NCBI GenBank assembly: GCA_013140575.1
Contig: JABFSN010000078.1
Span: forward strand, 1-46,679
Reading direction: 5' to 3'
Origin: Phycisphaerales bacterium
Lineage (GTDB): Bacteria > Planctomycetota > Phycisphaerae > UBA1845
Length of the DNA: 46,679 nucleotides
Shown: piece after piece, positions 10,896-32,571 of the stretch
Layout of the letters: the number at the start of each line of letters is the position of its first letter
How positions within the stretch are numbered: position 1 is the first letter of the stretch
The notes under the pieces: model-generated
The model's input: the letters and a program-made list of their open reading frames with translations, nothing else
Database searches by the model: none
Told to the model about the DNA's origin: nothing
Program-made: the position numbers and the translations under genes

Positions 10896-10968
10896 TCCCC
10901 GATAGCTCAATCGGTAGAGCGAGCGGCTGTTAACCGCTAGGTCGTAGGTTCGAGTCCTACTCGGGGAG
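10896..10968 (+). tRNA. tRNA-Asn (anticodon GTT)
   Basis: The full cloverleaf can be drawn: acceptor TCCCCGA/TCGGGGA, D arm GCTC/GAGC, anticodon stem AGCGG/CCGCT with loop CTGTTAA, and T arm GTAGG/CCTAC with loop TTCGAGT. The anticodon GTT reads Asn codons. Discriminator base G; CCA is not encoded. It sits at the left border of the accessory region. Confidence 0.96.
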
Positions 10969-11183
10969 ATCAACGATCGGTAGCGTATCTGGCGACCGAC
11001 GAGTTTACACGGGATTCCGGGCCAGAGAGCGGCCGGGGTCGTTCGCCTTAACGCGAGGATTGGCAGGGGTTTACGGATGCGGACGGAGCCGCCCGACCCG
11101 CGAGAGAGCGAGAATCAGAACCGGCCCGGCGCTGGCCGGACGCTCGGGAGCGGCTTTCGGCCCCCGCGCTCTCCGTTTCTCTC

Positions 11184-11228
11184 GTTAACAGCCGACCGTC
11201 CTGTTAACTCGCACCAGGCGGTTAACAG
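11184..11228. repeat. Three GTTAAC-centred repeats resembling the tRNA-Asn anticodon arm
   Basis: GTTAAC occurs at 11184, 11203 and 11221, spaced 19 and 18 bases. The first (GTTAACAGCCG) and third (GCGGTTAACAG) are exact 11-base reverse complements of parts of the tRNA-Asn anticodon arm. They may be recombination-site remnants or operators. The rest of 10969-11382 holds no gene that I can support. Confidence 0.4.
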
Positions 11229-11382
11229 AAAGAGACCGAGCCCGACCGGCCCCGGTTGCCTTCCGTCGCGGCATTGATACTTGCTCTCCGCGGTACGCTC
11301 GACATTCCGCCGGGGCGACGTAAACTGCGTGGGCTCACATGCGCGGTTTGATGCTGAAGCGCTCACGCACGAGAGAAGAATA

Positions 11383-11985
11383 GTGCCAGAGTCGATCATC
11401 TGCCCGATTCCGCCGTCGCCGGCGAAGGTTCTCGTCACCGGGGCCTTTCCCACAGGGAAAACTACCCTCTGCCGGCAACTCAAGAGCCTCCTCGAGCAGA
11501 ACGAAATCGCCGTGGCCCTCGTGAGCGAGGTACCTCGTCGTTGCCCTCTGCCACTGAATCGCGATCAAACCCCACTGGCTTCGGCGTGGCTCATCGGGGA
11601 GCAGATTCGTGCCGAGGCCGAAGCGGCGACGATCGGGACACCCGACGTGGTCGTTTGCGACCGCGGCCTACCGGACATTATCTCGCACACCTTTGTGCTG
11701 CGCGAGGATAATCCCAACTGGGCAGCGGCGATCGATCTGCTCGTGGAAATGTCCGTGTCATGGTGCCGAACGTACACCGCAGTCTGGTGGGCTCGGGCGG
11801 CTCCATGCCTTCCCATCGAAGCGGATGGAGTGAGGTTGGCCGACAAGGACTTCCAGCGCACGCCAGAATCTTCGCTGAAGCTCGCCCTTGGAATGCTCGG
11901 CATTGCTCATCAGGAGCTCCCGTCACAGACCAATGCACGCGTTTCGTTAATCGCCGATCGCATCCGCAGCCTGGTGCGACGCTGA
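11383..11985 (+). CDS. NadR/AAA_28-like P-loop NTPase
   Basis: The 200-aa protein, read from GTG at 11383 behind AGAGAAG, begins VPESIICPIPPSPAK. It has a Walker A GAFPTGKTT at residues 20-28, a hydrophobic strand ending in D (DVVVCDRGLPDI), and the lid-like segment LPIEADGVR...DFQRTPES that I associate with NadR-type and AAA_28 kinase-like ATPases. These are small soluble NTPases related to nucleotide and nucleoside kinases. It is the first of three tightly packed genes (13 bases to the next). A longer frame from TTG at 11281 adds residues with no family likeness. The substrate is unknown; it may make or prime a nucleotide or energise the partners. Confidence 0.75.
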   Translation: MPESIICPIPPSPAKVLVTGAFPTGKTTLCRQLKSLLEQNEIAVALVSEVPRRCPLPLNRDQTPLASAWLIGEQIRAEAEAATIGTPDVVVCDRGLPDIISHTFVLREDNPNWAAAIDLLVEMSVSWCRTYTAVWWARAAPCLPIEADGVRLADKDFQRTPESSLKLALGMLGIAHQELPSQTNARVSLIADRIRSLVRR

Positions 11986-11998
11986 TCAAAGGTACTCA

Positions 11999-12874
11999 AT
12001 GGCCATCATGTTACCGCTTCAGGCTGCCCTCGGCCGACCACCGCACGAAGCCACTGTCGCCGCCCGCATATGCTGCTACCATAACGAGCCTTACAGGAAG
12101 ATCGCTTGGCAGATTACCAATCGCTGCCATCTGCGATGTCCTTATTGTTTCACCCCCGAACGTGATTCTCGGGACCTGACATACGAGGCGTGTGTGCGCC
12201 TTCTGAACTCACTTCGGACGCTGTTTCCACATAAGGACAGACTGCTCTTTGCGGGCCGCGAGCCGCTCCTGCATGATTCGATTCTTAACGTTTTGTCACA
12301 TGCCAACACGCTCGGGTATCGCTGTTCACTCTCTACAAGCGGCGAGCTACTAAACGCGAACACCGTCGAGGAGCTTTGTAATCGCGGCCTGCAAAAGGTC
12401 AACGTAACCGTGAACGCTGCAGATTCCTCCGCTCACGCTGCCTCTCGGCCCGGTGGCCGCCTCGCACGAGTTCTGGACGGTATCCGCTTTGTTCGGGCTA
12501 CAGGGATGATCCTCAAAGTGAATGTAACGCTAGTGGACAAAGCAGCAACCGATTTAACTGACACACTACGTCTGCTCGCCGAACTCGACGTACGACGAGT
12601 GAGCGTTAGTTTCCTTCATCCGGCGGGACCGAAGCGCGGCATGGGCCCGGCATTCACACACGAAGCGCTTCACGCAATCCAAGCGGCCGCGTCTCGTGCC
12701 CAACTGCCCTTGGCCCACATTCATGTGATTGCGCCACCCGAGCACGGGCCGTGCTCCAACCACGACATGTGTCCAGCGAGCAGAGGTCTCGTAGCGGTTC
12801 TCCCCGATGGCACAATAACCCAATGTAACATATTTCCCTTTGCGTTCCCATCTCATGGAGTTCCCCATGAATAA
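11999..12874 (+). CDS. Radical SAM protein with C-terminal Cys cluster
   Basis: The 291-aa enzyme has the radical SAM CxxxCxxC motif as CHLRCPYC (C43, C47, C50) for the SAM-binding [4Fe-4S] cluster. The SAM-binding GGE motif appears as AGREPLL. A partial TIM barrel follows (KVNVTVNAAD; LKVNVTLVDK; RRVSVSFLHPAGPKRG). The C-terminus has C252, C258 and C276 in a pattern C...CPAS...LPDGTITQC, like a short SPASM or twitch domain that binds an auxiliary cluster. Such enzymes often modify peptides or proteins; others act on small molecules. AAAGG precedes the ATG. Its stop overlaps the start of the next gene, so the two are translationally coupled. Confidence 0.85.
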   Translation: MAIMLPLQAALGRPPHEATVAARICCYHNEPYRKIAWQITNRCHLRCPYCFTPERDSRDLTYEACVRLLNSLRTLFPHKDRLLFAGREPLLHDSILNVLSHANTLGYRCSLSTSGELLNANTVEELCNRGLQKVNVTVNAADSSAHAASRPGGRLARVLDGIRFVRATGMILKVNVTLVDKAATDLTDTLRLLAELDVRRVSVSFLHPAGPKRGMGPAFTHEALHAIQAAASRAQLPLAHIHVIAPPEHGPCSNHDMCPASRGLVAVLPDGTITQCNIFPFAFPSHGVPHE

Positions 12875-14906
12875 TCTTGATCGTTGGATTGCAACCATAG
12901 AGGAAATCGATTTTCTGCTTCCGCAGTGCGCATGCACGCTCGAGCGGTTCTATTCGCCTGTGCATGGCTTTCAGGCCAATCCCGAGGCTGGATCAACGAG
13001 CGCCATCAGCCATGCCATCTGCGTGGAAGCTTCCCTAGCCCTTGATGCCTCGGCCGGGCTTGATTACTTCTCCGATGCTGAACGGGTCCGGCAGCTCGAT
13101 CTCCTCATCCAGACGAAGCCGACGACTGGCAGAAACTCCACACATCCGGAGCGGCCTGTCGTCGAGTCATCACCATACGCCGCTAGTATTGTCCTTCCAG
13201 CATTGTCTGCTCTAAGTCCCTGGTCCAAGGACCTGCCTGATCCACTCTGCCGCCAGCTTGGCCTGCTGCTCGAACAGCTGAACAACGGGGCCACCGCCTA
13301 CGCAACCGTTGAGTACACCGGAGCCGTGGATGTACGGAGGCAGACACCGTTTCGGCATGCGTTGTTTCTGTACCGTCTGCGGCGAGCGTTCGCGGCGCTT
13401 GAAGCTTCCTGGCTGAAGGCCTTGTGCAAAGCGGCCGGACAAGGCGCACAAGTGGGCAAATTGCGCAAGGACCTGGGGCGACCGATAGAGCTGTTGAACA
13501 CAAAGCTGAAGGATGGTCTATACTATTTTCTTTCAATGTGCGACGCTATCCCAAACAACGAGGAGGACGCAGCTGAGTTGGGTTACTGTATATATGCCCT
13601 GCATCGATACACGAATTACAGAAACGATGTTGTTGCTGAGCACGCGTCGCACCTGGCCGCCAATACACTTTTCAAAGATGGTCGCGTTCCAAGGCTGCAG
13701 GTAGCGCTAAGAGACCCCATCCACAATATATCGGTATCGCCTATCGAGATTCTCACGCTCTTGTCCGTTCTACCTCATACACTGCGCACCTTCGACAGGG
13801 TCGCCAGCGCGTATCAGCGCGCGTATGACTGGGTTCGAGCTACGCAGCGGGCCGGTCTCTTTTCCGAGTCAGACGCTCCTGGCTGGATGGCTGAACCATG
13901 GCGCGGCGAGGGCAAGCCAGAGGCGTGGCTGAACGCCGGCGTGATTCAATTTCTCGTGGCATACCGCGCCCTACTGAGGCAAGTATGCGCAGAACGGGTG
14001 CTTGTTGAACTCAGAGCAGTCACGGCAAAGCCACAGCACTTATGGGATGATGTCATTGACTTCGATAGGTTCAAGGATGAGCTGGCGATCGGTTTTTTTG
14101 ACCCTATCCTGAAGGCTCTCGATCGCAGCGACGGCCTTCCGAAGAGCTCGATAATCCTCTATGGGCCGCCCGGTACGACGAAGACGTCGGTCGCTGCAGC
14201 TATCGCATGGAAGTTGAGATGGCCGTTCGTCGAAATTGGTCCCCACCTGTTTGCGGAAGATGGGGTTGAGGGGGTAATCCGAAAGGCGAAGACCGTATTC
14301 CGCAAACTAATGGTTTTGGAGAGATGCGTTATCTTGCTTGATGAGGTTGACGAGCTCGTACGGAGTCGAGACGCCGAGTACGAGAAGATTGGACGATTCA
14401 TCACTACGAGTGTTCTCCCGTGGCTTCAGCACCTGCGAAACAGGGCAAGACTGGTGCTGATCGTGGCCACAAACCACGTAGAGCGTTTCGATCCCGCGAT
14501 CAGGCGGCCGGGTCGGTTTGACTACGTTATTCCGATTGGCCCACCACGGCGTGCGGAACGGCGTGAGCGCCTAAAGTACTTCTCTCGGAAAGCTGGAATT
14601 GGAGACGAGAAACTGGCAACAGTTGTCGAGGACTTGGATCGTGCGATCGAGACCGCATGGAAGACCGAATGGCTGAAGACAAAGCTCGAGGGGGATCCGC
14701 CTGACCACGACATTGCCTGGCCGGCTACCATAGGGGAACTGAAATACCTGGTCGAGCACGCTGCTCGGGCCGGTGCGAGCAAAGAGACGGAGGCATTGGT
14801 TAATAGGGCGGCGCAGAACCCGCTGATTTCGCCGTCGGAGTGGACTCGGTTTGAGAAGGACACGATCCGCTACCGGTACCCGCCCCTTACGAGGGACGGT
14901 TATTAG
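12867..14906 (+). CDS. AAA+ ATPase with large helical N-terminal domain
   Basis: The 679-aa protein starts at the ATG at 12867 (MNNLDRWIATIEEIDFLL), behind GGAG, inside the last codons of the radical SAM gene. Residues 1 to about 400 are helical and repetitive (PYAASIVLPALSAL; GYCIYALHRYTNYRN; PEAWLNAGVIQFLVAYRALL), compatible with an alpha/alpha toroid like terpenoid cyclases, but I cannot assign a family. The C-terminal part is AAA+: Walker A GPPGTTKTS near residues 433-441 (the usual second Gly is Thr), Walker B VILLDEVDEL near 492, sensor 1 ATNH and RRPGRFDYVI. It may act as a remodelling partner of the modification enzyme. GC content is visibly lower than in the flanks. Confidence 0.85.
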   Translation: MNNLDRWIATIEEIDFLLPQCACTLERFYSPVHGFQANPEAGSTSAISHAICVEASLALDASAGLDYFSDAERVRQLDLLIQTKPTTGRNSTHPERPVVESSPYAASIVLPALSALSPWSKDLPDPLCRQLGLLLEQLNNGATAYATVEYTGAVDVRRQTPFRHALFLYRLRRAFAALEASWLKALCKAAGQGAQVGKLRKDLGRPIELLNTKLKDGLYYFLSMCDAIPNNEEDAAELGYCIYALHRYTNYRNDVVAEHASHLAANTLFKDGRVPRLQVALRDPIHNISVSPIEILTLLSVLPHTLRTFDRVASAYQRAYDWVRATQRAGLFSESDAPGWMAEPWRGEGKPEAWLNAGVIQFLVAYRALLRQVCAERVLVELRAVTAKPQHLWDDVIDFDRFKDELAIGFFDPILKALDRSDGLPKSSIILYGPPGTTKTSVAAAIAWKLRWPFVEIGPHLFAEDGVEGVIRKAKTVFRKLMVLERCVILLDEVDELVRSRDAEYEKIGRFITTSVLPWLQHLRNRARLVLIVATNHVERFDPAIRRPGRFDYVIPIGPPRRAERRERLKYFSRKAGIGDEKLATVVEDLDRAIETAWKTEWLKTKLEGDPPDHDIAWPATIGELKYLVEHAARAGASKETEALVNRAAQNPLISPSEWTRFEKDTIRYRYPPLTRDGY

Positions 14907-14957
14907 GGAGGCGGCAGGGGCAGTACGAGCATTCCATCACCACGGCCTCCACCAATC

Positions 14958-15050
14958 GGTTAACACTTCGCGTATATAACCAATAGGGGCCCGCACCCAC
15001 GGGCCAACTACCCGCCAGACGACACACCGGTCGCAAAGCGAAGGTCGTCG
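14958..15050 (+). promoter_or_regulatory. Candidate structured leader or recombination site, copy A
   Basis: It starts GGTTAACACTTCGCG and contains a hairpin GGCCCG-CACCCA-CGGGCC, then CGCCAGACGA and a second stem closing with GTCGTCG around a CGCAAAGCG mini-hairpin. It aligns nearly without gaps with copy B at 15525, and the first stem changes in both arms together. Only a short frame (ATG at 15102) follows this copy. It lies in the gene-free stretch 14907-15646. Confidence 0.45.
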
Positions 15051-15190
15051 TGGGCATCACCCGCGCCTGTCCCGAGGGCAGGCGAGCGGAGGTTCTGTGA
15101 TGGCCGTGCGACTCGGGGACTTCGTTCATACCGACCCGTGCGTTTCCAAATCATCGGGCAAAGACTGGTGCCCGTGAAAAGTAAACAGGA

Positions 15191-15214
15191 GCTGCCGCAC
15201 CCGCGTGCGGCAGC
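15191..15214. terminator. Perfect 10-bp hairpin, possible terminator
   Basis: GCTGCCGCAC, loop CCGC, GTGCGGCAGC. It is strong but lacks a following T run, so factor-independent termination is doubtful. It lies between the AAA+ gene and the recombinase operon. Confidence 0.35.
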
Positions 15215-15524
15215 GCCAATCCGTGCGTTACCGCGATCCCACATCTTTTCGGCCTTTCCGCTGGGCGGTCAGCAGGCTGGCTGTCCAGCAACCCGGCCTG
15301 TGGTTATCCCGCTGTTCGACAGGTTTTTGGGTGCAGAGGCAAAAGGTTTTTCAAATGAATACCCTCCTCTGGCAAAACCCCCGTGATGGATGAATCCGAT
15401 GCCGCAGGCACGGTGCGTGCGGCAATCGCCCTTCACGTCGGGTTCTTACGTGCGATTCGGCGAACCGACACCGATATTCGTCCTCGGCGTTCTGCCGTTG
15501 TAGTCGGCCAACCTGGAACCAGCC

Positions 15525-15622
15525 GGTTAACGGCTCGCGTATGTATCTCAATAGAGGCTTGTGCTGTCAAGCCTACCACTCGCCGGACGATTCGCTGGCC
15601 GCAGGGCGGAAGCCGTCGTCGG
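15525..15622 (+). promoter_or_regulatory. Candidate structured leader or recombination site, copy B
   Basis: It starts GGTTAACGGCTCGCG and contains the hairpin GGCTTG-TGCTGT-CAAGCC, then CGCCGGACGA and an outer stem around CGCAGGGCG, matching the architecture of copy A. It ends 25 bases before the first gene of the recombinase operon, where it could be a 5' leader or a binding site for the recombinase. Confidence 0.5.
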
Positions 15623-15646
15623 TATTGCCTCTTTGGAGCGATCCCG

Positions 15647-15928
15647 ATGGCCACGCGCCGCGACCTGTTCGATCCTGCCGATCCCGCCGACCTCCAACCT
15701 GAGCAGCGGCTGACCGAAGTTGCGGCGATTCTCGCGGCGGGTGTGATTCACATGCGCGAGCGGCGGGTGGCCACCGCGCCCAACGTCCGGCCGTGCCGGA
15801 ATGGGCGCGGAACGGACGAATCGGCCATGCGCCGGACGGCGGCATCGACGTCGAAGATTTCTCCGGAATCCGGCGAGATTCGCCTTGAGCTTTCCGACGA
15901 GCGTAGCCCTGATGGCCAGTGTGGTTAA
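15647..15928 (+). CDS. Small protein, first gene of the recombinase operon
   Basis: The 93-aa protein begins MATRRDLFDPADPADLQPEQR and continues LTEVAAILAAGVIHMRERR. The motif of Asp-Pro repeats followed by an EQRxxEVAAILAAGVxxxRxR helix is one I recall from small proteins encoded before DUF2924 genes in planctomycetes and some proteobacteria. GGAG lies eight bases upstream. After about residue 45 the sequence is low in recognisable structure (RNGRGTDESAMRRTAA). The function is unknown; the operon position suggests an accessory role in recombination. Confidence 0.7.
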   Translation: MATRRDLFDPADPADLQPEQRLTEVAAILAAGVIHMRERRVATAPNVRPCRNGRGTDESAMRRTAASTSKISPESGEIRLELSDERSPDGQCG

Positions 15929-15962
15929 CGCCTTGCGAGAGCGAGGGTTACGGAGAAGACGC

Positions 15963-16511
15963 ATGGCGCTGGAAATCGGCAAACAGATCGCGGTCCTCAA
16001 GCAAATGACCGTCCGGGAGCTGCGCGAGAAGTACGAGGAGGTCTTCGGCGAGCCGACGCGGGCCGGAAACCGGGACTTCCTGTTCAAGCGGATCGCGTGG
16101 CGGATTCAGTCGCTGGCCGAGGGCGACCTTTCGGAACGGGCACGACGGCGGGCGGATTTGCTGGCCCGCGATGCCGACCTGCGGACGACCGCCCCACGGA
16201 CGCCGATGGCTGCGACCAGCGACGACGGCGTACGAGACGCGAATCCGGCGGCGTCGCTTGCCGACGGGCGCATTCCGCCTCCGGGGACGGTCCTGACGCG
16301 CGTCTATCGCGGCCAGGCGTACCACGTTGTCGTCCGCCACGACGGGTTTGAATACGACGGCCAGATATTCCGGTCGCTGAGCGCCATCGCCAAACTGATT
16401 ACCGGCTCGCACTGGAACGGGTTGTTGTTTTTCAAGATCGCCAAGCCGAAGGCGGGCCGAGCCGCGAATATCACCAGCCCGAAGCGGCGGCAGGAGGCGA
16501 CGCATGGGTAG
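15963..16511 (+). CDS. DUF2924 domain protein
   Basis: The 182-aa protein begins MALEIGKQIAVLKQMTVRE behind GGAGAAG, 34 bases after the previous stop. It shows the DUF2924 hallmarks: LREKYEEVFGEPTRAGNRDFLFKRIAWRIQ, ERARRRADLLARDADLR, then RIPPPGTVLTRVYRGQAYHV, and the end FRSLSAIAKLITGSHWNGLLFF. The last part resembles a small DNA-binding fold also seen in recombinase-linked proteins. DUF2924 genes commonly precede serine recombinases, and this one overlaps the recombinase start by eight bases. The role is unknown; it probably modulates or targets the recombinase. An alternative start is the ATG at 15912. Confidence 0.88.
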   Translation: MALEIGKQIAVLKQMTVRELREKYEEVFGEPTRAGNRDFLFKRIAWRIQSLAEGDLSERARRRADLLARDADLRTTAPRTPMAATSDDGVRDANPAASLADGRIPPPGTVLTRVYRGQAYHVVVRHDGFEYDGQIFRSLSAIAKLITGSHWNGLLFFKIAKPKAGRAANITSPKRRQEATHG

Positions 16512-18066
16512 GAAACGCATCCATGCCGACGCGCCGCCGAAGCAGATTCGATGCGCGATCTACACGCGCAAAAGCACCGAGGAGGGGCTTCAACAGGATT
16601 TCAATACTCTCGACGCCCAGCGCGAGTCGGGCGAGTCCTACGTGGCGAGTCAGAAAGCAGAAGGATGGGTCTGCCTGCCGGACCGCTACGACGACGGCGG
16701 ATACACCGGGGGGAACATGGAGCGCCCGGCGCTTCAGCGGCTGATGGCCGACATCGACGCCGGGAGGATCGACTGCGTGGTGGTCTACAAGGTCGACCGC
16801 CTCAGCCGGTCCCTGATGGACTTCTCCCGGATGATGGAGGCGTTCGATGGGCACAAGGTCTCGTTTGTTTCCGTCACTCAGCATTTCAATACAACCCATT
16901 CGATGGGCCGGTTGACGCTGAACATCCTTCTGTCCTTCGCCCAGTTCGAGCGCGAGATTATCAGCGAACGGACGCGGGACAAGATCGCGGCCGCCCGCCG
17001 CAAGGGCAAGTGGATGGGCGGCAAGCCGCTGCTGGGCTACGACCTGCTGGTCACACCGGGCGGGTGCAAGCTCATCGTCAACGAGGACGAGGCCGCCCGC
17101 GTTCGCGCGATTTTCGAGCTGTACCTCGAATACGAGCGGATCGCGCCGGTGCTCCAAGAACTCGATCGCCGCGAGTGGCGGACCAAGGCGTGGACGACGC
17201 GCAAGGGAACGCCGTGCGGCGGCAAGCCGTTCGACAAGGTCACGTTGTTCCGGTTGCTCACCAACCCGATCTACCTCGGCAAGGTGCGGCACCGGGAGAA
17301 CCTCTACGACGGCGAACACGACGCCATTGTCAACGAGGCGCTGTGGCGGCGCGTCCAAGCCGTTCTCCAGCGAAACGGCCGCACCGGCGGCGGCGCAGTG
17401 AAGAACAAGTACGGCGCGTTGCTGAAGGGGCTGTTGCGGTGCGTTCCTTGCGACTGCGCGATGGTCCACTCGACCTCGTCGAAGGGGCCGAAGCGGTACA
17501 GGTATTACGTCTGCACGAAGGCCCAGAAGCGCGGGTGGTACACGTGCCCTTCGAAGTCCGTGCCCGCCGGCGAGTTGGAGCGGTTCGTCGTCGATCAGAT
17601 TCGCGGGATCGGGAGCGACCCGAGCGTCCTTGCGGAGACCATCCGGCAGGTGCGGACGCAGAGCCAGAAAGCGATCGCCGAACTCGAACGCGAGAAGAAC
17701 ACTCTCGAGCGCGACGTTACACGGAAGAGCAATGCGCTGAAGCAGCAACTCGCTGCACGGGCGGACGCGAACGGATCGGACGTGGCTGGTCGGCGCGACG
17801 AACTTCGCCGGCTGGAGACTCGGCTTACCGGGGTGCGCGAGCGGCAGGTTGCACTCAGCCGCGAACTGGTCGATGAGCGGGAAGTCGTCCAGGCCCTTTC
17901 GCTGTTCGACCCGGTCTGGGATTCGCTGACGCCGCACGAGCAGGCGCGGATCGTGCGGTTGCTGGTCGAGCGCGTCGATTACGACGGCGATAGCAGCTCG
18001 GTGGCCGTCACGTTTCGGCCCACGGGCATCAAGGCGTTGGCCGAGGAAGCGGAGAACGCGGCATGA
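16504..18066 (+). CDS. Large serine recombinase
   Basis: The 520-aa protein has a resolvase catalytic domain (IRCAIYTRKSTEEGLQQ with nucleophile S24; VVYKVDRLSRSLMD with the catalytic Arg residues; ILLSFAQFEREIISERTRDKI), a recombinase domain (GKWMGGKPLLGYDL; LFRLLTNPIYLGKVRHRENLYDG), a zinc ribbon (LRCVPCDCAMVHSTS...YYVCTKAQKRGWYTC) and a coiled coil (about residues 390-460). This is the layout of large serine integrases, which cut and rejoin two short sites with a 2-bp overlap. It is the core of a four-gene operon with overlapping ends, and may have mobilised this island. Activity appears intact at sequence level. Confidence 0.93.
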   Translation: MGRKRIHADAPPKQIRCAIYTRKSTEEGLQQDFNTLDAQRESGESYVASQKAEGWVCLPDRYDDGGYTGGNMERPALQRLMADIDAGRIDCVVVYKVDRLSRSLMDFSRMMEAFDGHKVSFVSVTQHFNTTHSMGRLTLNILLSFAQFEREIISERTRDKIAAARRKGKWMGGKPLLGYDLLVTPGGCKLIVNEDEAARVRAIFELYLEYERIAPVLQELDRREWRTKAWTTRKGTPCGGKPFDKVTLFRLLTNPIYLGKVRHRENLYDGEHDAIVNEALWRRVQAVLQRNGRTGGGAVKNKYGALLKGLLRCVPCDCAMVHSTSSKGPKRYRYYVCTKAQKRGWYTCPSKSVPAGELERFVVDQIRGIGSDPSVLAETIRQVRTQSQKAIAELEREKNTLERDVTRKSNALKQQLAARADANGSDVAGRRDELRRLETRLTGVRERQVALSRELVDEREVVQALSLFDPVWDSLTPHEQARIVRLLVERVDYDGDSSSVAVTFRPTGIKALAEEAENAA

Positions 18067-18503
18067 ACATGGTGGTGGCCGAGGAACTTGGCGGACGGAT
18101 CACGACCCGGAGCACGATTCACTTCGCCCGGGCGCGCCGAGGGCGGAAGGAACTCCGTCGTGGCGAGGCACCGCCGCCACCGGCGCCGCCCGCCTACGGT
18201 CGCGTGCCGCGGATCGCGAGGTTGATGGCATTGGCGATCCGGATGCAGACGCTCGTCGGCGCCGGCGAGGTCAGCGACTACGCCGAGCTTGCCCGCCTCG
18301 GCCACGTCACCCGTGCCCGCGTCACGCAGATCATGAACCTCCTGTGCCTGGCCCCGGACATACAGGAGGATATCCTGTTCCTGCCGCCGATCGAGTCCGG
18401 CCGCGACCCGATCCGCGAGCTGCAACTCCGGCCCATCACGATGGTGCCCGACTGGCGGAAACAGCGGCGGATGTGGCGGGAGATTCTGAAACCTGCTCGT
18501 TAG
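18063..18503 (+). CDS. Recombinase-associated HTH protein
   Basis: The 146-aa protein shares an ATGA overlap with the recombinase stop. After a basic N-terminus and a Pro-rich linker (APPPPAPPAYGR) it reads VPRIARLMALAIRMQTLVGAGEV, then a helix-turn-helix DYAELARLGHVTRARVTQIMNLLCLAPDIQEDILFLP. This HTH is like those in the ParB/RepB group. I recall such proteins immediately downstream of serine recombinases that follow DUF2924 genes. It probably acts in DNA binding, as a directionality factor or an operon regulator. The 164 bases after it hold only the next gene's leader. Confidence 0.75.
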   Translation: MNMVVAEELGGRITTRSTIHFARARRGRKELRRGEAPPPPAPPAYGRVPRIARLMALAIRMQTLVGAGEVSDYAELARLGHVTRARVTQIMNLLCLAPDIQEDILFLPPIESGRDPIRELQLRPITMVPDWRKQRRMWREILKPAR

Positions 18504-18667
18504 TCCTGCCAGCGGCAAATCACAAGATGTTGTGTTAACCGGGTGGTCTGGCCTCAAAGCCTGGTAGCAGTTATGCTCAACGGTAAGGTCGTCGCGTGCG
18601 GCATGCTTGCCGTATGAACGCGCCGGGCTCCGCGGCGGCGGTAAGGGGCCGGCACGGAGTACCACCG

Positions 18668-22317: not shown

Positions 22318-22632
22318 ATGCAACAGGTGATATATCGCTTCACCTTCGACGAATCGCTTTCGATGAGCGATGTCGAAGCGACGCTTCATCTTGCAATCGT
22401 CGGGGCCGAAAGTCTTCACGGTGAATCCACCGTGCGCATGGACGGGGCCTACTCGATCAACGAGGACCGGCGGGTCATCGTCGTTGACGGCCGCAACGAA
22501 ATCGGGCGATGCATTTGCCAGATATTCACCGGCTACCTGACGCGTGAATTCGGAGGCGACAGGTTCAGCGTCCGCGCCATTGCCTCGGCCCGGGCCGCTC
22601 GATTGCAGGCGCCTGCGGCGATCTCGGCATGA
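22318..22632 (+). CDS. Small conserved phage-module protein
   Basis: The 104-aa protein begins MQQVIYRFTFDESLSMSDVEAT behind GAGGA; a start at the ATG at 22303 would place that site inside the gene. It has the form of a compact alpha/beta domain (TLHLAIVGAESLHGESTVRMDGAYSINEDRRVIVVDGRNEIGRCICQIFTGYLTREFG). I recall similar small proteins in planctomycete mobile elements, all uncharacterised. Its stop overlaps the primase start (ATGA), so the two are coupled. A role in replication is inferred from position. Confidence 0.6.
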   Translation: MQQVIYRFTFDESLSMSDVEATLHLAIVGAESLHGESTVRMDGAYSINEDRRVIVVDGRNEIGRCICQIFTGYLTREFGGDRFSVRAIASARAARLQAPAAISA

Positions 22633-24692
22633 GCGACCCGGTGACGCAATTTCTCCCGCTCCTCAAGGGCGTGCGCCCGACCGGACCCAATCAGTGGATG
22701 GCATGCTGTCCGGCCCATCCGGACCAGCATCCCAGTCTGTCGATCTCCCGAGGTGAAGACGGACGGTTGCTGGCCCGGTGCCATACCGGTTGCGCGTACG
22801 ACTCGATCCTGTCAGCGGTCGGGTGGAAGCCGGCGGACTCCTTCCCCGGCAGGCAGGCGGCGTCGCAGCGGCCCACTAACCGAAACAAATCGCAGAACGG
22901 CGCCGCGTTCCCGTCTGAAACAGCGGCAATGGCGCACCTTGTCCACAATCTGGGGGGCAATTGTGCGGGTACCTGGGCGTATCAGGACGCCGCAGGCGAT
23001 GAAGTCTTCCGGATCGTGCGACTCGACGGCTGCCGGGGGGCGAAACCGAAACAGTACCGCCCACTGCGACGGTCGATCGACGGCTGGCACATCGGCGATC
23101 CGCCGGGGCTGCTGCCGCTCTACGGCCTGCCCGAGTTGGCCGGGGCATCCACGATATGGGTTTGCGAGGGCGAGAAATGCGTCGAGATTCTTCGAGACCT
23201 GGGTCTGATGGCCACCACCAACGCCCACGGCGCCCTGGCGAGCGACCGAACCGACTGGACGCCCCTTGCCGACAAGCGCGTGGTCGTGTGCCCGGATCAT
23301 GATGCCGCAGGCGATAGGCACACCAAGGGCGTCCTCGAAAACCTGGGCCGCCTGTCTTCCGTCCCGACGATCAATATCGTGCGACTTCCCGTCACGAATG
23401 AAGGTGACGACATCGAGCAATTCGTGGAGGCGCGGCGGGCAAGTGGCGTTTCCGGCGACGACATCCGCCGTGAGCTCGAGCATCTCGCGGATGCTGCGCC
23501 GTTCAAGGCTTCAACTGAGGAGCTGGTGATCGTGAGACTCTCCGACGTAACGCCCGAAATTCAGCCCTATATGTGGGAAGGGCGAATCCCCTCCGCATCA
23601 TGTACGCTGCTCGGCGGCCGGCAGAGTGGAACGAAAAACCTGTTCGCCTACGACCTGATGGCCCGCGTGACGACTGGATCGCCGTGGCCTGACGACCGAA
23701 CCGGGCCCGGGCGCAGGCCGGCTAGCACGATCCTGCTGGAGGCCGAGGAACACCTCGAATCGTCGATCGTTCCGCGCCTGGCGGCCGCGGGGGCCGACCT
23801 ATCCCGGGTTCATTTCATCAAGGGCGCCCCCACCGACAATCCCGACCGGACCCGACTGATCAGTATTCAGCGCGACGTGGAGGGCATTGAACGGCTGGCC
23901 GGGCGATTGGGCGACGTGGCCCTCGTCGTTGTGTCGCCGATCACGAGCTATCTGGGCAGCGTGGAACAGAACAGTAACGAGCAGGTTCGCAACGAAATCC
24001 TTCACCCGCTCAAGACCCTGGCCGAGACCGTCGGATGCGCGGTGCTGATCATCAAACATCCCAACAAGGATTGGCGGAACAACGAACCGCTGGAGCGCAT
24101 CGGCGGTTCGGCGGCGTGGACCGAGGCGATGCGCTGCGTGGTGTTCATCGGCAACGATCCTGACGAACCCCTCGAGGAGAAAAACCCCCGCCGCTGCGCG
24201 ATGTGGATCAAGTTCTCGATCGGACTGACTCCCGATCCGCTGTCGTGGAAGATCTTCGTCGCGGACTCAGGAGCCCCGACCATCCGCTACCTGTCCGACC
24301 CAGTCAATTTCAGCGCCAGTGAAATGCTCGTCGGGAAGCGCCGGAACGAGGAGCGCAAATCGAAACGTGAATTCGCTGCCGAGTGGATCGCCGAGACCCT
24401 GGCCGATAGTCCGATGACCGCGGCCGCGCTCAATGACGCGGCGATGACCGCGGTGGAGGAAGATCGCCAGTTCAGCATGGACGCGTTCGAGCGGGCGCGA
24501 AAGGACATGCGAGACGCGAGACGCCTGGTGTTTGAGCGCAAGCCTGGGATTGACCCGGCGGAGTGGTGGTACTGGCTCGCCGACAAGGCGGCACCCGACT
24601 GGTTCGTCGTTGAAGGCGGTGCCGGAGCAACTTCCGCAAACGACCCACGCGCGCGCGTAGACCCCCAGACATGCGGAACATGCGGAAGTTGA
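22629..24692 (+). CDS. Primase (zinc finger plus TOPRIM) fused to RecA-like helicase domain
   Basis: The 687-aa protein begins with a CHC2-like zinc finger (CCPAHPDQHPSLSI...LARCHTGC, residues 26-55). A TOPRIM domain follows: the Glu motif WVCEGEKCVEIL near residue 180 and the acidic motif VVCPDHDAAGD near 224. From about residue 320 comes an AAA_25/RepA-like ATPase: SCTLLGGRQSGTKNLFAYDLMARV, a Walker B-type VALVVVSPITSYLG, and HPNKDWRNNEPLERIGGSAAWTEAMRCVVFI. Its P-loop is atypical (GGRQSGTKN in place of GxxxxGKS). Phages and plasmids use such proteins to prime and unwind at their own origin. The iteron cluster at the gene's end supports that. The C-terminal end CGTCGS overlaps the first repeats. 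Confidence 0.88.
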   Translation: MSDPVTQFLPLLKGVRPTGPNQWMACCPAHPDQHPSLSISRGEDGRLLARCHTGCAYDSILSAVGWKPADSFPGRQAASQRPTNRNKSQNGAAFPSETAAMAHLVHNLGGNCAGTWAYQDAAGDEVFRIVRLDGCRGAKPKQYRPLRRSIDGWHIGDPPGLLPLYGLPELAGASTIWVCEGEKCVEILRDLGLMATTNAHGALASDRTDWTPLADKRVVVCPDHDAAGDRHTKGVLENLGRLSSVPTINIVRLPVTNEGDDIEQFVEARRASGVSGDDIRRELEHLADAAPFKASTEELVIVRLSDVTPEIQPYMWEGRIPSASCTLLGGRQSGTKNLFAYDLMARVTTGSPWPDDRTGPGRRPASTILLEAEEHLESSIVPRLAAAGADLSRVHFIKGAPTDNPDRTRLISIQRDVEGIERLAGRLGDVALVVVSPITSYLGSVEQNSNEQVRNEILHPLKTLAETVGCAVLIIKHPNKDWRNNEPLERIGGSAAWTEAMRCVVFIGNDPDEPLEEKNPRRCAMWIKFSIGLTPDPLSWKIFVADSGAPTIRYLSDPVNFSASEMLVGKRRNEERKSKREFAAEWIAETLADSPMTAAALNDAAMTAVEEDRQFSMDAFERARKDMRDARRLVFERKPGIDPAEWWYWLADKAAPDWFVVEGGAGATSANDPRARVDPQTCGTCGS

Positions 24693-24847
24693 AGCGTTGA
24701 AAATGATTCAAAGGCCCAAGACACAGGTGATGCGGAACATGGGGAAGATGCGGAAGTTGATTCCTGAGGCGCCAGCCATGTTCCGCATGTTCCGCATCTG
24801 TGGGACCCCACGCGCGCGCGAGGAAGTTGCCGGAGTGCGGAAGTTGA
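24628..24847. repeat. Iteron-like cluster, candidate replication origin
   Basis: The 9-base unit ATGCGGAAC/G recurs in groups: two units at 24671, three at 24730 (the middle one ATGGGGAAG), two inverted at about 24778-24797, single units at 24836 (TGCGGAAG) and inverted at 24631 (CTTCCGCA). Two CCCACGCGCGCGCG blocks (24644 and 24807) bracket the centre. The array begins in the last codons of the primase gene and continues into the gene-free stretch 24693-25092. Directly repeated short units beside a primase/helicase gene are typical of phage and plasmid origins. Confidence 0.6.
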
Positions 24848-25092
24848 CCGCCGTGCCATCGGCCATCCGAGCCGCATTTGGTTGCTACGACGTTCACCAA
24901 GACCGGAGGCACCCGCTGCGTCCGAATTCCGACGCGTTTGCGGGCCACCCCAGCGTTTGCGGCGGGACGCGTTGCGGGTGCGTTCGGGTTGGGGCGGCAA
25001 CTCGACTACGTCGGGCGCCAACCGTTGCGACGTGGGCGAACGGGGCGCGTTGGGGGCGAAAGTCGGGGCGGTAGATAGCAAGCGGTAGTGAT

Positions 25093-26517
25093 ATGGCGGC
25101 GGCGGTGAAAACCCGGAAACGACCGACGGTGAGACCGGAGTTTGTGCGGTTGGTCTCGCTCTCCCGGATCATTCCCTGTCCGGAAAACAAGCAACTCTAC
25201 CGGCTGGTCGATCCCCGCGACCCGGACATACAGGCCCTGGCCGAGAGCATCCGCGAACACGGCGTCCGCGAGCCGCTGGTCATTACCGAGGACGGCTACC
25301 TCCTGTCCGGCCACCGCCGGCGGGTAGCGGCGAAGCTCGCAGGATTGACACGGGTGCCTTGCCGGATCGAGCCCATCCGATATGGCGAGGCGTCGACCGA
25401 CGAGATTGTGCAACTGCTGCGTGAACACAACCGGCAGCGGGTCAAATCCCTGGACGAGATGCTCCGCGAGGAGGTCGTATCGGCCGATCCCGATCTGGCC
25501 CATGTCCGGCTGTTGGAACATCGCCGGGACCGGTCGGACATGTCCGACCGGCCGTCGTCGACCGTTGAAATGTCCGGCCGGAAGGGCCGAAAGCGTATCA
25601 GCGAACAGAAACGGGCCATGACCGAGGCCGTAATGGCGGCCATCGGGGAACGCCGCGAATACTGGCCGCTGTCCGATCGACAGATTCACTACGTGCTGCT
25701 CAATGATCCTCCCCTGCGCAACGTCACGCGACCGGACTCCCGGTATGCCAACGACCGGGCCAGCTACGGCGACCTGTGCGACCTGCTGACCCGCGCCCGG
25801 TTGACTGGGGAGATTGTTTGGCGCGCGATCGGCGACGAGACCCGGCCCACCACGCAATGGCGCTGCCACGCCCATGCGCAGGCGTTCATTCACGAGCAAG
25901 TTGACGAACTGTTCCGAAATTATGCCCGCGACCTCCAACGCACGCAGCCCAACCACATAGAGATCGTGGCCGAGAAGCTGACGGTGCGGAACATCGTCGA
26001 GCGCGTCGCATCGCGGTTTTGCCTGCCGGTGACCATCGGTCGCGGCTATTGTTCGATTACCCCTCGCTACGACATGGCCCAGCGCTTCCGCCGGAGCGGC
26101 AAGGAGCGCCTGATCGTGCTGATTCTCAGCGACTTCGACCCGGACGGCGAGGCGATCGCCGAGTCGTTTGCCCGCTCTATGCGCGACGACTTCGACGTTG
26201 TCGAGTTGGTACCGGTGAAGGTGGCCCTGACCGCCGAGCAGGTAACCCGGCTGGGACTTCGGTCCGGGATGCAGGCCAAGCGCGGCTCGGCGCAGTACCG
26301 CAAGTTCGCACGCCAACACGGTACGAACGTCTACGAACTGGAGGCCGTGCCGCCCGACGTGCTCCAGCAACTGCTCACCGAGGCCATCGACGCCGTGCTC
26401 GATGTGGAGGCCTTGAACGGCGAAATCGACGCGGAAAAAAAGGACGCGGCGTTTCTGGAAGAAGCCAGGCAGCGTGCGTGCCTGGCGCTGGGCGAGATGA
26501 GAGGAGAGATAACGTGA
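25093..26517 (+). CDS. ParB-like N-terminal domain fused to TOPRIM-type C-terminal domain
   Basis: The 474-aa protein opens with a basic tail and a ParB/Srx-type domain (VRLVSLSRIIPCPENKQLYR; LAESIREHGVREPLVITEDGYLLSGHRRRVAAKLAGLTRVPC). After a linker, ERREYWPLSDRQIHYVLLNDPPLRN begins a second module that I associate with large phage proteins, ending in a TOPRIM-like strand LIVLILSDFDPDGEAIAESFARS near residue 341. The DxD pattern suggests metal binding. Such fusions occur in actinobacterial and planctomycete prophages. A nicking or DNA-partition role is inferred. The stop overlaps the start of the next gene. The upstream ribosome site is weak. Confidence 0.75.
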   Translation: MAAAVKTRKRPTVRPEFVRLVSLSRIIPCPENKQLYRLVDPRDPDIQALAESIREHGVREPLVITEDGYLLSGHRRRVAAKLAGLTRVPCRIEPIRYGEASTDEIVQLLREHNRQRVKSLDEMLREEVVSADPDLAHVRLLEHRRDRSDMSDRPSSTVEMSGRKGRKRISEQKRAMTEAVMAAIGERREYWPLSDRQIHYVLLNDPPLRNVTRPDSRYANDRASYGDLCDLLTRARLTGEIVWRAIGDETRPTTQWRCHAHAQAFIHEQVDELFRNYARDLQRTQPNHIEIVAEKLTVRNIVERVASRFCLPVTIGRGYCSITPRYDMAQRFRRSGKERLIVLILSDFDPDGEAIAESFARSMRDDFDVVELVPVKVALTAEQVTRLGLRSGMQAKRGSAQYRKFARQHGTNVYELEAVPPDVLQQLLTEAIDAVLDVEALNGEIDAEKKDAAFLEEARQRACLALGEMRGEIT

Positions 26518-27866
26518 ACATTGAAATGATCCCCATTGGAGCGATCACAGAGTACGACCGGAACCCGAGGCTGAATGACGCCGCGGTCGGGCCGGTGGCG
26601 GAGTCGATCCGGTCGTTCGGCTTCAAGGTGCCGGTCATTGTTGATGGCGAGAACGTGCTGGTGGCCGGTCACACGCGGGTCAAGGCGGCGCGGCAACTCG
26701 GAATGACGGAAGTGCCGGCCGTACGCGCCGACGATCTGACGCCGGAGCAGATTCGGGCCTTTCGCATCGCGGATAACCAACTGCACCAGCTGTCCGACTG
26801 GAACGTGGAGCAACTGGCGGTTGAGCTGGGCGAACTGCAAGGCATGGACTTCAATCTCGATGTGTTGGGCTTCAGCGAGGACGAGTTGGCCAAGTTCCTC
26901 GACCCGGGCGTCCAGGACGGGTTATGCGATCCGGACGCCATTCCCGAGCCGCCGGATGCCGCGATCACCCAGCCGGGTGATCTGTGGATTCTCGGCGACC
27001 ACAGGCTGCTCTGCGGCGACAGCGCGTCTGCCCAAGACGTGGACCGGCTACTCGGCGGTCAGCCCGTTCATCTGATCAACACGGATCCGCCCTACAACGT
27101 CAAAGTCGAGCCGCGGAGCAACACGGCCATTGCGGCGGGAATGAGTTCGTTCAGCAATCCCGACGCCCATCTCCACCACCAGAAGTTCGACCAGGCCCGC
27201 GGCGTAGCCGACCCTACGAAAGCGCGGGCCAAGATGCGCCCCAAGGACCGGCCGTTGATGAACGACTACGTGACCGACGCGGAATTCGACCAACTGCTGG
27301 ACGCGTGGTTCGGCAACATGGCTCGCGTGCTGCAACCGGGGCGGTCGTTCTACATCTGGGGCGGCTACGCCAATTTGGGCAATTACCCGCCGTTTCTGAA
27401 GAAGCACGGGCTGTATTTCAGTCAGGGCATCGTATGGGACAAGCAGCATCCGGTACTGACGCGCAAGGACTACATGGGCGCGTTTGAAATCGCGTTCTAC
27501 GGGTGGCGCGAGGGCGCGGCGCATCACTTCCTCGGCCCGAACAATGCCACCGACCTCTGGCACGTCAAGAAGATCCCGCCGCAGCAAATGGAGCATCTAA
27601 CGGCCAAGCCCGCGGAACTGGCCGTGCGGGCGATTCAGTACTCGTCGCGTGCGGGCGAAAACGTGCTCGACCTGTTCGGCGGGTCGGGATCGACGCTGAT
27701 CGCGTGCGAGCAGACGGGACGGCGGGCGTTTCTGATGGAACTCGACGCGCTCTATTGCGACGTGATTGTCGACCGCTACCAGCGCTTCACCGGCAAGCCT
27801 GCGGTTCTGGAGCGCACGAGCGAGTCACCAATTCCGATGAAGCCTCGCGAGGAGGCCATGCGATGA
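26514..27866 (+). CDS. ParB-like domain fused to beta-class DNA methyltransferase
   Basis: Read from GTG at 26514 behind GAGGAGAG, the 450-aa protein begins (M)NIEMIPIGAITEYDRNPR and carries a ParB-like domain (ESIRSFGFKVPVIVDGENVLVAGHTRVKAARQLGM). From about residue 165 it is a DNA methyltransferase: catalytic DPPY (INTDPPYNVKVE, near residue 191) comes before the SAM-binding ENVLDLFGGSGSTLIACE (near 382), the beta-class order for N6-adenine or N4-cytosine methylation. ParB-methylase fusions are common in phages and protect DNA from host restriction or mark sites for the element. No cognate restriction enzyme is adjacent. The GTGA overlap couples it to the previous gene. Confidence 0.9.
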   Translation: MNIEMIPIGAITEYDRNPRLNDAAVGPVAESIRSFGFKVPVIVDGENVLVAGHTRVKAARQLGMTEVPAVRADDLTPEQIRAFRIADNQLHQLSDWNVEQLAVELGELQGMDFNLDVLGFSEDELAKFLDPGVQDGLCDPDAIPEPPDAAITQPGDLWILGDHRLLCGDSASAQDVDRLLGGQPVHLINTDPPYNVKVEPRSNTAIAAGMSSFSNPDAHLHHQKFDQARGVADPTKARAKMRPKDRPLMNDYVTDAEFDQLLDAWFGNMARVLQPGRSFYIWGGYANLGNYPPFLKKHGLYFSQGIVWDKQHPVLTRKDYMGAFEIAFYGWREGAAHHFLGPNNATDLWHVKKIPPQQMEHLTAKPAELAVRAIQYSSRAGENVLDLFGGSGSTLIACEQTGRRAFLMELDALYCDVIVDRYQRFTGKPAVLERTSESPIPMKPREEAMR

Positions 27867-27946
27867 CGTGCGTTGGGACTGTCCTGCCGGAGAGACGCCC
27901 CGGACATTGCCGAGGCGTTTGGGGAGGGCGTGAAATGTGGGGCGCG

Positions 27947-28783
27947 CTATCCGTTGAACGCGAACAGGCCGCGATCAGTCTTGGTGAAGCGCGCGTCTTT
28001 GCCTTTGGTGTTGGCCTCGCGCATCATGGCGGCGTACAAGGTCGCGTGCGGCGTCTTGCCGTTCGGGCTGGTCCAGAGGCCCTTGGCGGCCATCTCGGCG
28101 ATCAGGTCTTGGGCCCGCATGGGCTTGCCGGCGCTCTTCAGGACTTGCGCAGCGGCGTCCAGGGCGCTGACGCGCTTGGGCTTCTGGCCGGTCGCCGTTT
28201 TGATCTTCGGATCGCCTTTCGGTTTGCGCTCGCTTTTGGCATTCTTCGGGTTCTCGCTCGATCGCTTCTTCGTGGCATTCTTCTTCGGCATGTCATTCTC
28301 CTTGTCTGTGGTCTCAGTCTCCGATGGGCGACACGCGTCGCCCTCTACGCCCGCATCCGGGCCTTCGTCGTCCGATTGGTCGGCGCTTTCGTTCGCGCAG
28401 TGCTCCGCCCAGCACGCCTGGCACAGCGGTTTGCCCATGTGCGTCAGGGCCACGTGCATGCCGCACCCCGGCGTCGCACATCGATTCGGATCGTATTGCG
28501 GCCCGGCGTCGTCGGCCGTTTCGGACTGGGCCTCCGCCGTCGGTCCGCCGGTCTTTGCCGCCGTTGGCTCGCCGGTCTCCGCCGCCGTCGGTGCTCCGGC
28601 TTCCGCTGTGCCGACTTCGCACCGCAGGCGCTGGGCGCTCTTGATGCGGACCTTGCGGTGGGTCGAGACGTTGGTCCCGTCCCAACCTCCGAACCGGCTC
28701 GCCGCATCGATGCGCACCCGCGCGAGCTGGCCGCTGACCTTGGCGCAATAGGTGCCGCCAATCTGCACCTTGTCTTTTTTCAT
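27947..28783 (-). CDS. HARE-HTH protein with central Cys motif
   Basis: The 278-aa protein starts MKKDKVQIGGTYCAKVSGQL behind GAGGAG (ATG at 28783). Residues 1-55 form a small beta-rich domain. A low-complexity Ala/Thr/Glu stretch follows, then a Cys-rich motif RCATPGCGMHV...GKPLCQACWAEHC, probably zinc-binding. A Lys-rich linker leads to a HARE-HTH winged helix at the C-terminus (ALDAAAQVLKSAGKPMRAQDLIAEMAAKGLWTSPNGKTPHATLYAAMMRE...RFTKTDRGLFAF). HARE-HTH domains read DNA, in some cases its modified bases. It is the first of two minus-strand genes facing the methyltransferase, so a role with methylated DNA is possible. Confidence 0.8.
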   Translation of the reverse strand: MKKDKVQIGGTYCAKVSGQLARVRIDAASRFGGWDGTNVSTHRKVRIKSAQRLRCEVGTAEAGAPTAAETGEPTAAKTGGPTAEAQSETADDAGPQYDPNRCATPGCGMHVALTHMGKPLCQACWAEHCANESADQSDDEGPDAGVEGDACRPSETETTDKENDMPKKNATKKRSSENPKNAKSERKPKGDPKIKTATGQKPKRVSALDAAAQVLKSAGKPMRAQDLIAEMAAKGLWTSPNGKTPHATLYAAMMREANTKGKDARFTKTDRGLFAFNG

Positions 28784-28849
28784 GCAATACTCCTCGTTCC
28801 AAAGCTCATGCTCGGCCGCGCCTACGCGACGCGGCGTTGTGGACATCGG

Positions 28850-29059
28850 TCAATCGCGTGCGGGCACGAACAGTTCGCCGGCCTCCCAGACCTCGCGGCC
28901 GAATTGGGTCTGGACCACGTAGGACCAGGCCCCGACGCCGCTGCGCCGGTGGGTGCAGACCCGTACGATGCGGCCCGGCTCGGCGTCTTCAATGGAGACC
29001 ACGGTCGTGCCCGGCGTCAGTCGCCGGTTGGCCCGGGTCGTTTCGTCGATCTTCAACAT
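28850..29059 (-). CDS. Small protein, 69 aa
   Basis: The ATG at 29059 follows AAGGAG, and the product begins MLKIDETTRANRRLTPGTTVVS and ends EVWEAGELFVPARD. The pattern of short strands (TTVVSIEDAEPGRIVRVCTHRR; AWSYVVQTQFGREVW) suggests a small SH3-like beta barrel, as in other small phage or regulatory proteins. It is 66 bases upstream of the HARE-HTH gene on the same strand and probably in one transcript with it. The 215 bases upstream separate it from the divergent zinc-ribbon gene and should hold both promoters. The function is unknown. Confidence 0.6.
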   Translation of the reverse strand: MLKIDETTRANRRLTPGTTVVSIEDAEPGRIVRVCTHRRSGVGAWSYVVQTQFGREVWEAGELFVPARD

Positions 29060-29274
29060 CGTTGGCTCCTTCGCGTTGGGTACGCCCCATGCGTACAACG
29101 CCATGAGGGCGATTCCGCCAAACACAATCAAGGCCGATTCCGAAGAACCGCGGCGAATTCCGCAGATTCTTTTCGCGGCGATTACGGTGACGGTTCGATG
29201 CATTCAGTGCGTCGCATGCCGTCCGGTGTCCGTTCAATGCACGCGTCCACCGTGCAGTCACGGAGGAGGGCGGC

Positions 29275-29487
29275 ATGATCATCGACGCCACGCATGCGAC
29301 GCCGTCGGGCCGAGCTCGCCGCACGCTGGAGACGGTCGTCTTCGAGCGCCCGCGCTGTCCGAAGTGCGACGGCGTGCGTCTGCGAAAATTCCGCAGCATT
29401 CGCGATCAGGGCGACGGCTCGTCGCTGGCGTGGGTCCGATGCGAGAACGCGGCGTGCGGACATCGGTTCCGCGTGCTACGCGAGTGA
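29275..29487 (+). CDS. Small zinc-ribbon protein, 70 aa
   Basis: A strong GGAGGAGG site precedes the ATG. The product begins MIIDATHATPSGRARRTLETVV and contains RCPKCDGVRLRKFRSIRDQGDGSSLAWVRCENAACGHRFRVLRE, with two Cys pairs (CPKC and CENAAC) in the spacing of a zinc ribbon. Small zinc ribbons of this kind are frequent in phage genomes between replication and packaging genes and may bind nucleic acid. It lies 72 bases before the HNH gene. Confidence 0.7.
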   Translation: MIIDATHATPSGRARRTLETVVFERPRCPKCDGVRLRKFRSIRDQGDGSSLAWVRCENAACGHRFRVLRE

Positions 29488-29559
29488 CGGCACAGTGGTT
29501 CCAGCGGTTGGAACGAAACTGGATGATCATGGCTACGATGCACGCGATGGGAGGTTGCG

Positions 29560-30831: not shown

Positions 30832-30841
30832 CGATCTCGCC

Positions 30842-32476: not shown

Positions 32477-32571
32477 CCATCCTCCGACCCTGCCGTGCGG
32501 CCCAGCCGATCTCCGACGCCGGCCGGGCGTAACTCGGTCCTGACCGGCGATGGCGCGCCGCAGGCCGCCAC

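Follow-up and report, generated by a model that had tools for sequence, protein, structure and literature searches.

RADAR, the described system closest in design to the locus reported here, consists of an AAA+ protein, RdrA, and a second protein, RdrB, which on infection turn (d)ATP into (d)ITP (PMC9994260). Other described systems resemble the locus in part: the prokaryotic viperins (pVip/SAND) in combining a radical S-adenosylmethionine (SAM) enzyme with a nucleotide-kinase-like neighbour, IetAS in its AAA domain, and MoaA and the twitch/SPASM enzymes (BlsE, PqqE, AhbD) in their core domain and in an arrangement of C-terminal cysteines that points to an auxiliary cluster. We analysed a 46,679 nt stretch of DNA from a Phycisphaerales bacterium (Planctomycetota; GenBank assembly GCA_013140575.1, contig JABFSN010000078.1, positions 1–46,679), hereafter the window, and describe a cassette of three genes at positions 11383–14906. 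Tentatively, and at somewhat less than an even chance, we read it as a mobile conflict system, probably anti-phage and RADAR-like, in which an AAA+ sensor/motor would govern a nucleotide-modifying pair made up of a kinase and a radical SAM enzyme. A role in defence or signalling had been raised in a first-pass annotation made from the sequence alone, and is kept here as a possibility. The three genes are the following.

11383..11985, + strand: P-loop nucleoside triphosphatase (NTPase), AAA_28/thymidylate-kinase-like, 200 aa (Pfam AAA_28 5e-8, PHROG 2107 2.4e-10)
11999..12874, + strand: MoaA-like radical SAM enzyme, 291 aa (Pfam Radical_SAM 1.7e-19)
12867..14906, + strand: VCP/CDC48-type AAA+ ATPase, 679 aa, with an N-terminal helical domain at residues 1 to ~420 (Pfam AAA 4e-24)

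The NTPase gene begins at a GTG at 11383, with an alternative upstream TTG at 11281 possible, and is separated from the radical SAM gene by 13 nt, while the AAA+ gene, from an ATG at 12867, shares 8 nt with the end of the radical SAM gene. The packing and the gene order suggest that the three co-directional genes form one transcription unit, and they bear out the first-pass annotation, which had called three tightly packed genes with a kinase-like NTPase beside a radical SAM enzyme. Active-site motifs are intact in all three proteins. The NTPase has a P-loop (GAFPTGKT) and a DR motif, passes the gathering score of PF13521 (33.7 bits vs 27) and is covered by the PHROG 2107 'thymidylate kinase' match over residues 14–196. 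The radical SAM enzyme carries CHLRCPYC at residues 43–50, the CxxxCxxC core common to all radical SAM enzymes, together with AGREP, and the AAA+ protein has the Walker A (GPPGTTKT), Walker B (VILLDEVDE), sensor 1 (VATNH) and RRPGRFD elements of a VCP/CDC48-type ATPase. The low GC content from which the DNA had been thought acquired is found in the second and third genes (56.7 and 56.5 %, vs 63.3 % in the window), most clearly at third codon positions (57.5 and 62.5 %, vs 77–85 % in most neighbour genes), but not in the NTPase gene, which is not GC-poor (62.0 %, and 70.6 % at third positions). The contrast had also been overstated by taking a single 67 % line of prfB as the reference, because the entire gene has 60.8 %.

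The cassette shares with RADAR the pairing of an AAA+ ATPase with an enzyme that modifies nucleotides (here a predicted one), and by analogy we propose an AAA+-controlled nucleotide conversion here. The cassette differs in having no RdrB adenosine deaminase, its partners being an AAA_28 NTPase and a radical SAM enzyme, two enzymes rather than one, and in a VCP-like AAA+ protein whose N-terminal domain is a different one (RdrA being compared by PADLOC scan only). The IetA models of PADLOC and NCBIfam match the cassette AAA domain (6e-19; 58.7 bits), but the cut-off is 510 bits, IetA has no N-terminal domain of the cassette type, and no S8 protease (IetS) was detected by Pfam among the open reading frames (ORFs) between 11 and 20 kb, whereas a true IetAS pair is present in R. 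leguminosarum. The nearest NCBIfam models of the radical SAM enzyme are AhbD, NirJ, PqqE and MoaA, all with scores far under the family cut-offs (65.3 bits for the MoaA model TIGR02666, vs 284), and its relatives of solved structure are GDGT/MAS synthase, MoaA, BlsE and PqqE; no genes of a cofactor pathway lie near the cassette. With its three C-terminal cysteines (Cys 252, 258 and 276), the enzyme probably has an auxiliary cluster. From the viperins the enzyme differs in lying nearer to MoaA/AhbD/PqqE and below the viperin cut-off, in the likely auxiliary cluster and in its AAA+ partner, and we read the cassette as neither viperin nor IetAS. A search of 245 other Planctomycetota genomes at 1e-20 returned no close relative of the enzyme but one, with 30 % identity over part of its length.

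The AAA+ protein matches Pfam in its AAA domain only (~429–557), and its first ~420 residues, the half that the first-pass annotation could not place, match no Pfam family and no sequence in the PDB. Homology of this N-terminal domain was assessed with leave-one-out hidden Markov model profiles, built without the group under test, with shuffled sequences as a control. The window protein was recovered with an expect value (E) of 6e-7, the Parabacteroides protein with 1e-7 and the DUF4406 group with 4.5e-7 (best), while shuffles reached 0.5 or worse, and FtsH and true IetA did not match the profile. By these profile comparisons, AAA+ proteins from Rhizobium, Sinorhizobium, Parabacteroides and prophages share the N-terminal domain with the window protein; a literature search of partial coverage returned no description of this AAA+ family, which we regard as undescribed. 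Candidates H1 and H3 were rejected, being FtsH and IetAS, respectively, and the G058 and G155 proteins were left out of the family, their AAA domain being common to it and their N-terminal domain not demonstrable. A related AAA domain is also present in two AAA+ proteins (~967 aa) from planctomycetes (L042 2122–6518 and L043 6492–9900), their N-terminal relation not being demonstrated; one is encoded, by eye, next to an alpha/beta hydrolase and genes for Tn7-like transposition, the other next to a Fic protein.

Structure prediction of the N-terminal half, a step that had been proposed earlier, failed for the window protein, whose direct model was discarded at a predicted local distance difference test (pLDDT) score of 34.5, and gave a medium-confidence, toroid-like model for a prophage relative (pLDDT 70–85 over much of residues 145–330; mean 52.7, predicted template modelling score 0.58). 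With VIA-align, the 50 best rows for this model all belonged to the complement/alpha-2-macroglobulin group, in the region of the thioester domain (Z 12.4–14), and complement C3d was matched with Z 13–14 over ~250 residues at a root mean square deviation of ~4. Helical models may reach Z values of 12.4–14 by chance. Since the Z values could be of this kind, the Foldseek E never fell below 0.02 and is not significant, and the modelled relative is 22 % identical to the window AAA+ protein, the resemblance of the N-terminal domain to an alpha/alpha-toroid such as C3d is a good lead and not a result, and the likeness to the thioester domain, taken from the relative's model, is one of fold only. A search of BFVD gave no significant match, and no internal repeats were detectable in the domain.

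Relatives of the AAA+ protein occur in Rhizobium beringeri, Sinorhizobium meliloti, Parabacteroides distasonis, the planctomycete G020 and three IMG/VR contigs (L074, L075 and L076) found by motif pattern search. The second gene, in the rhizobia as in the three viral contigs, encodes a DUF4406 protein that is extended by ~450 residues (fused or separate); in L074 Pfam does not detect the DUF4406 part, which was assigned because it resembles the other members. The C-terminal extension matches no Pfam family, its GLTSH-ADVVRKA-IPA end resembling, by eye, a phosphoenolpyruvate-utilising phosphotransferase. By reading, the L075 pair has ORFs resembling terminase, DNA methylase and primase genes as neighbours, and the L074 pair has tail-like ORFs nearby. 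On a P. distasonis plasmid (L032 4472–8765) a double-ThyX protein, a putatively toroid-type AAA+ protein and a HIT protein are encoded in tandem, and may form a separate candidate system. In G020 (L041 4175–7012) a nucleotidyltransferase–radical SAM fusion (698 aa) and an AEP-like protein follow the AAA+ gene, a set that probably belongs with the AAA+ core, the match being led by the AAA domain. The unit that recurs is the AAA+ protein, N-terminal domain included, accompanied by partner enzymes that vary and that, to judge by family, are mostly nucleotide-related. The association of AAA+ relatives with nucleotide enzymes, some of them on phage or viral DNA, suggests an uncharacterised defence system.

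The breadth of the AAA+ family is under-sampled, and statements of rarity are weak. Viral scans that took the AAA+ protein and the radical SAM enzyme of the window as protein queries gave no match, an alignment-based scan for AAA+ relatives was rejected as giving generic AAA+ proteins only, and a scan of 644 Bacteroidota and Bacillota genomes gave no match at 1e-45, which carries little weight as only two to three candidates per genome were scored. The AAA+/DUF4406-extension pair spans 675–4809 in L074, 316–4800 in L075 and 1060–5286 in L076, and is also found on Rhizobium and Sinorhizobium plasmids. FRG-like and transposase-like ORFs lie near the G020 locus (by eye).

Elsewhere, in Nostoc and Gluconobacter, NTPases with an RCPfPi-x2-x-T motif pair with another radical SAM family. 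On these two plasmids (L069 3759–5567 and L070 3272–6517) the radical SAM proteins are 48 % identical to each other; in Nostoc their gene lies directly 5′ of the AAA_28 NTPase gene, and in Gluconobacter a 3′–5′ exonuclease and an aldo/keto reductase are added to the radical SAM/AAA_28 set, after DUF3800. NTPase matches in other Planctomycetota did not adjoin the radical SAM enzyme of the cassette. At L089 1506–5890 (by eye) an NTPase gene of the same type converges on an AOR-like gene, and a radical SAM protein is encoded upstream.

The surroundings of the cassette are those of a mobile element, and comprise the following features.

10896..10968, + strand: tRNA-Asn (GTT) (ARAGORN), whose anticodon arm holds ACC-N3-CGGTTAAC on the minus strand
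10929–10942, − strand: site copy within tRNA-Asn (pattern search)
11213..11226, + strand: attachment-site (att)-like repeat ACCAGGCGGTTAAC, left of the cassette (pattern search)
14951..14964, + strand: att-like repeat ACCAATCGGTTAAC, right of the cassette (pattern search)
15518..15531, + strand: att-like repeat ACCAGCCGGTTAAC (pattern search)
15801..16511, + strand: DUF2924 protein of the recombinase module (Pfam 1.7e-43)
16504..18066, + strand: large serine recombinase (Pfam Resolvase 3.3e-37, Recombinase 3.2e-13, Zn_ribbon_recom 1e-14)
18063..18503, + strand: small recombinase-associated protein (PHROG 14161 'recombinase' 5e-19)
18534..18547, − strand: att-like repeat ACCACCCGGTTAAC, 3′ of the recombinase module and proposed right end of the element (pattern search)

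The tRNA gene and the serine recombinase operon (15801–18503) had both been noted as adjoining the cassette. The pattern ACC-N3-CGGTTAAC has five exact copies within 7.6 kb of the window and six in the whole genome (5.05 Mb), and a reversed control pattern has four matches genome-wide. When one mismatch was allowed, the window held six copies vs 0.61 expected, a count reached in 0 of 100 shuffles; a rough Poisson estimate for the four non-tRNA copies is 5e-11, which is optimistic, the pattern having been picked after the sequence was seen. Despite this post hoc choice, the clustering of the copies is not in doubt. Those at 15518 and 14951 also share TCGCGTATRTA. The copies at 11213 and 14951 flank exactly the three cassette genes, while the tRNA copy and that at 18534 flank the three genes plus the module of DUF2924 protein, serine recombinase and small protein, and the locus thus combines a recombinase with site repeats at a tRNA gene, as a tRNA-targeted integrative element does. 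The best reading is that a small integrative element at tRNA-Asn, of ~7.6 kb and with proposed limits at 10929–18547, carries the three genes as its cargo; its serine recombinase presumably acts on the att-like sites. A classical attR of tRNA sequence was rejected, the window having no second tRNA 3′ end.

Among eight genomes of the same family, all exact site copies are ACCTAGCGGTTAAC, the tRNA-Asn form, and most of them fall on a tRNA-Asn hit or on a partial copy of the tRNA. Several genomes of the family (e.g. G1058:C40, G1047:C56 and G1072:C46) have the 3′ half of tRNA-Asn (~43 bp) duplicated 1–4 kb downstream, which marks this tRNA gene as a family-wide hotspot for integration, with small elements. 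The AAA+ protein has no match in 59 other relatives (E<=1e-25). Because the cassette lies between tRNA-Asn and a recombinase module, is bracketed by sites and has an AAA+ gene absent from these relatives, we consider it acquired, as had been supposed, a conclusion better carried by the repeats and the absence in relatives than by GC content.

Downstream of this element, the window is phage-like at 22629–32917, with a primase/helicase (22629), a ParB-like protein (25093), the small (30340) and large (30842) terminase subunits and a tyrosine integrase fragment (32495), and this stretch is probably a second, decayed element. Positions 28001–29000 show a strong AT skew (−0.375) over ~1 kb, unlike the remaining window.

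In the mechanism that we propose, the AAA+ protein would be the core: its N-terminal domain, if alpha/alpha-toroid-like, may sense a trigger or dock the partners, and its ATPase ring would control the partner enzymes. The NTPase would act first, as the kinase of a nucleoside or nucleotide, and its product would then be rearranged or modified by the MoaA-like radical SAM enzyme. On activation the nucleotide pool would be poisoned or depleted, with toxicity to phage or host. Nucleotide chemistry is proposed because the NTPase is thymidylate-kinase-like and the relatives of the radical SAM enzyme include the nucleotide-acting MoaA and BlsE. The gene content, the intact motifs, the mobile setting with its att-like repeats and the AAA+ family with changing partners are observed, while the toroid fold of the window protein, its sensing, the substrate, the order of steps and the role in defence are inferred.

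Several observations weigh against this reading. No PADLOC defence family match names the system, and cysteines for such a likely auxiliary cluster are found as well in enzymes that modify peptides or cofactors. The planctomycete G020 protein was missed by the leave-one-out profile (E 41), with a weak pairwise N-terminal match (0.001) and the AAA region only, and the toroid comes from the distant relative, the model of the window protein itself having been discarded. A conserved neighbourhood of all three genes, in which the first-pass annotation had placed its test, was not found: the exact trio was found, within a limited search, only at this locus, an outcome that the annotation had itself named as one that would refute its reading, so that the argument for their co-function comes down to packing and overlap.

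If the radical SAM enzyme, with its likely auxiliary cluster, modified the precursor of a peptide, protein or cofactor while the AAA+ protein unfolded or remodelled the substrate, the cassette would be a maturation system. The nearest NCBIfam models, which are SPASM/twitch maturases and AhbD/NirJ/PqqE, and Cys 252/258/276 would fit this, as would the fact that VCP-like AAA+ proteins usually remodel proteins; but a search of the flanks for precursors of ribosomally synthesized and post-translationally modified peptides gave no convincing small ORF, a kinase-like NTPase is unusual in such cassettes, and the AAA+ relatives adjoin nucleotide enzymes, not maturases, leaving this explanation unlikely. 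We think it distinctly unlikely that the genes make a nucleoside-derived natural product or signal and are carried as cargo with no link to defence. The similarity of the radical SAM enzyme to BlsE, a cytosylglucuronate decarboxylase, and the kinase and radical SAM pairs that recur with an exonuclease and an aldo/keto reductase in Nostoc and Gluconobacter point in that direction, whereas the element has no transporter or further biosynthetic gene, an AAA+ partner is unusual for biosynthesis, and AAA+ systems of the same type are found on viral contigs.

It is improbable that the three genes are unrelated to one another, make up no functional unit and merely collected at a hotspot for integration, which tRNA-Asn is in the family. 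The restriction of the exact trio to this locus and the different GC content of the first gene would be expected in that case; yet the genes share one direction, the 13 nt spacing and the 8 nt overlap, the att-like repeats enclose all three together, and AAA_28 proteins also pair with a different radical SAM enzyme in Nostoc and Gluconobacter. A viperin-type system, with the radical SAM enzyme making a chain-terminating 3′-deoxy-3′,4′-didehydro (ddh)-nucleotide from a triphosphate provided by the NTPase, seems to us very improbable. The PADLOC pVip models do match the radical SAM core (6e-18), a nucleotide kinase gene adjoins the radical SAM gene, and the FAG-x-EP of the enzyme resembles the FAGGEP of viperin. 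Against this, the viperin model NF038283 scores 54.7 bits vs a cut-off of 180, behind AhbD, NirJ and MoaA, and the enzyme has the additional C-terminal cysteines, in agreement with the earlier view that it is not viperin-like at the C-terminus. MoaA, moreover, serves as an outgroup for viperins (PMC10732462).

Returning to the RADAR-like conflict system that we favour, a wider and more doubtful extension, which we consider rather unlikely as it stands, is that the cassette represents a mobile immune class in which one AAA+ core with an alpha/alpha-toroid sensor is combined with interchangeable nucleotide-altering enzymes, one trigger driving many chemistries. The enzyme sets would be a kinase and a radical SAM enzyme here and, elsewhere, DUF4406 with a phosphotransferase-like part, ThyX with HIT, or the nucleotidyltransferase–radical SAM protein with the AEP-like protein. 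If our reading is right, nucleotide-pool immunity of the RADAR type would reach a second AAA+ family with exchangeable enzymes, and immunity would include radical SAM chemistry other than that of viperin, with new modified nucleotides predicted. For the Planctomycetota, the att-like repeats offer a handle on the movement of cargo through tRNA-Asn.

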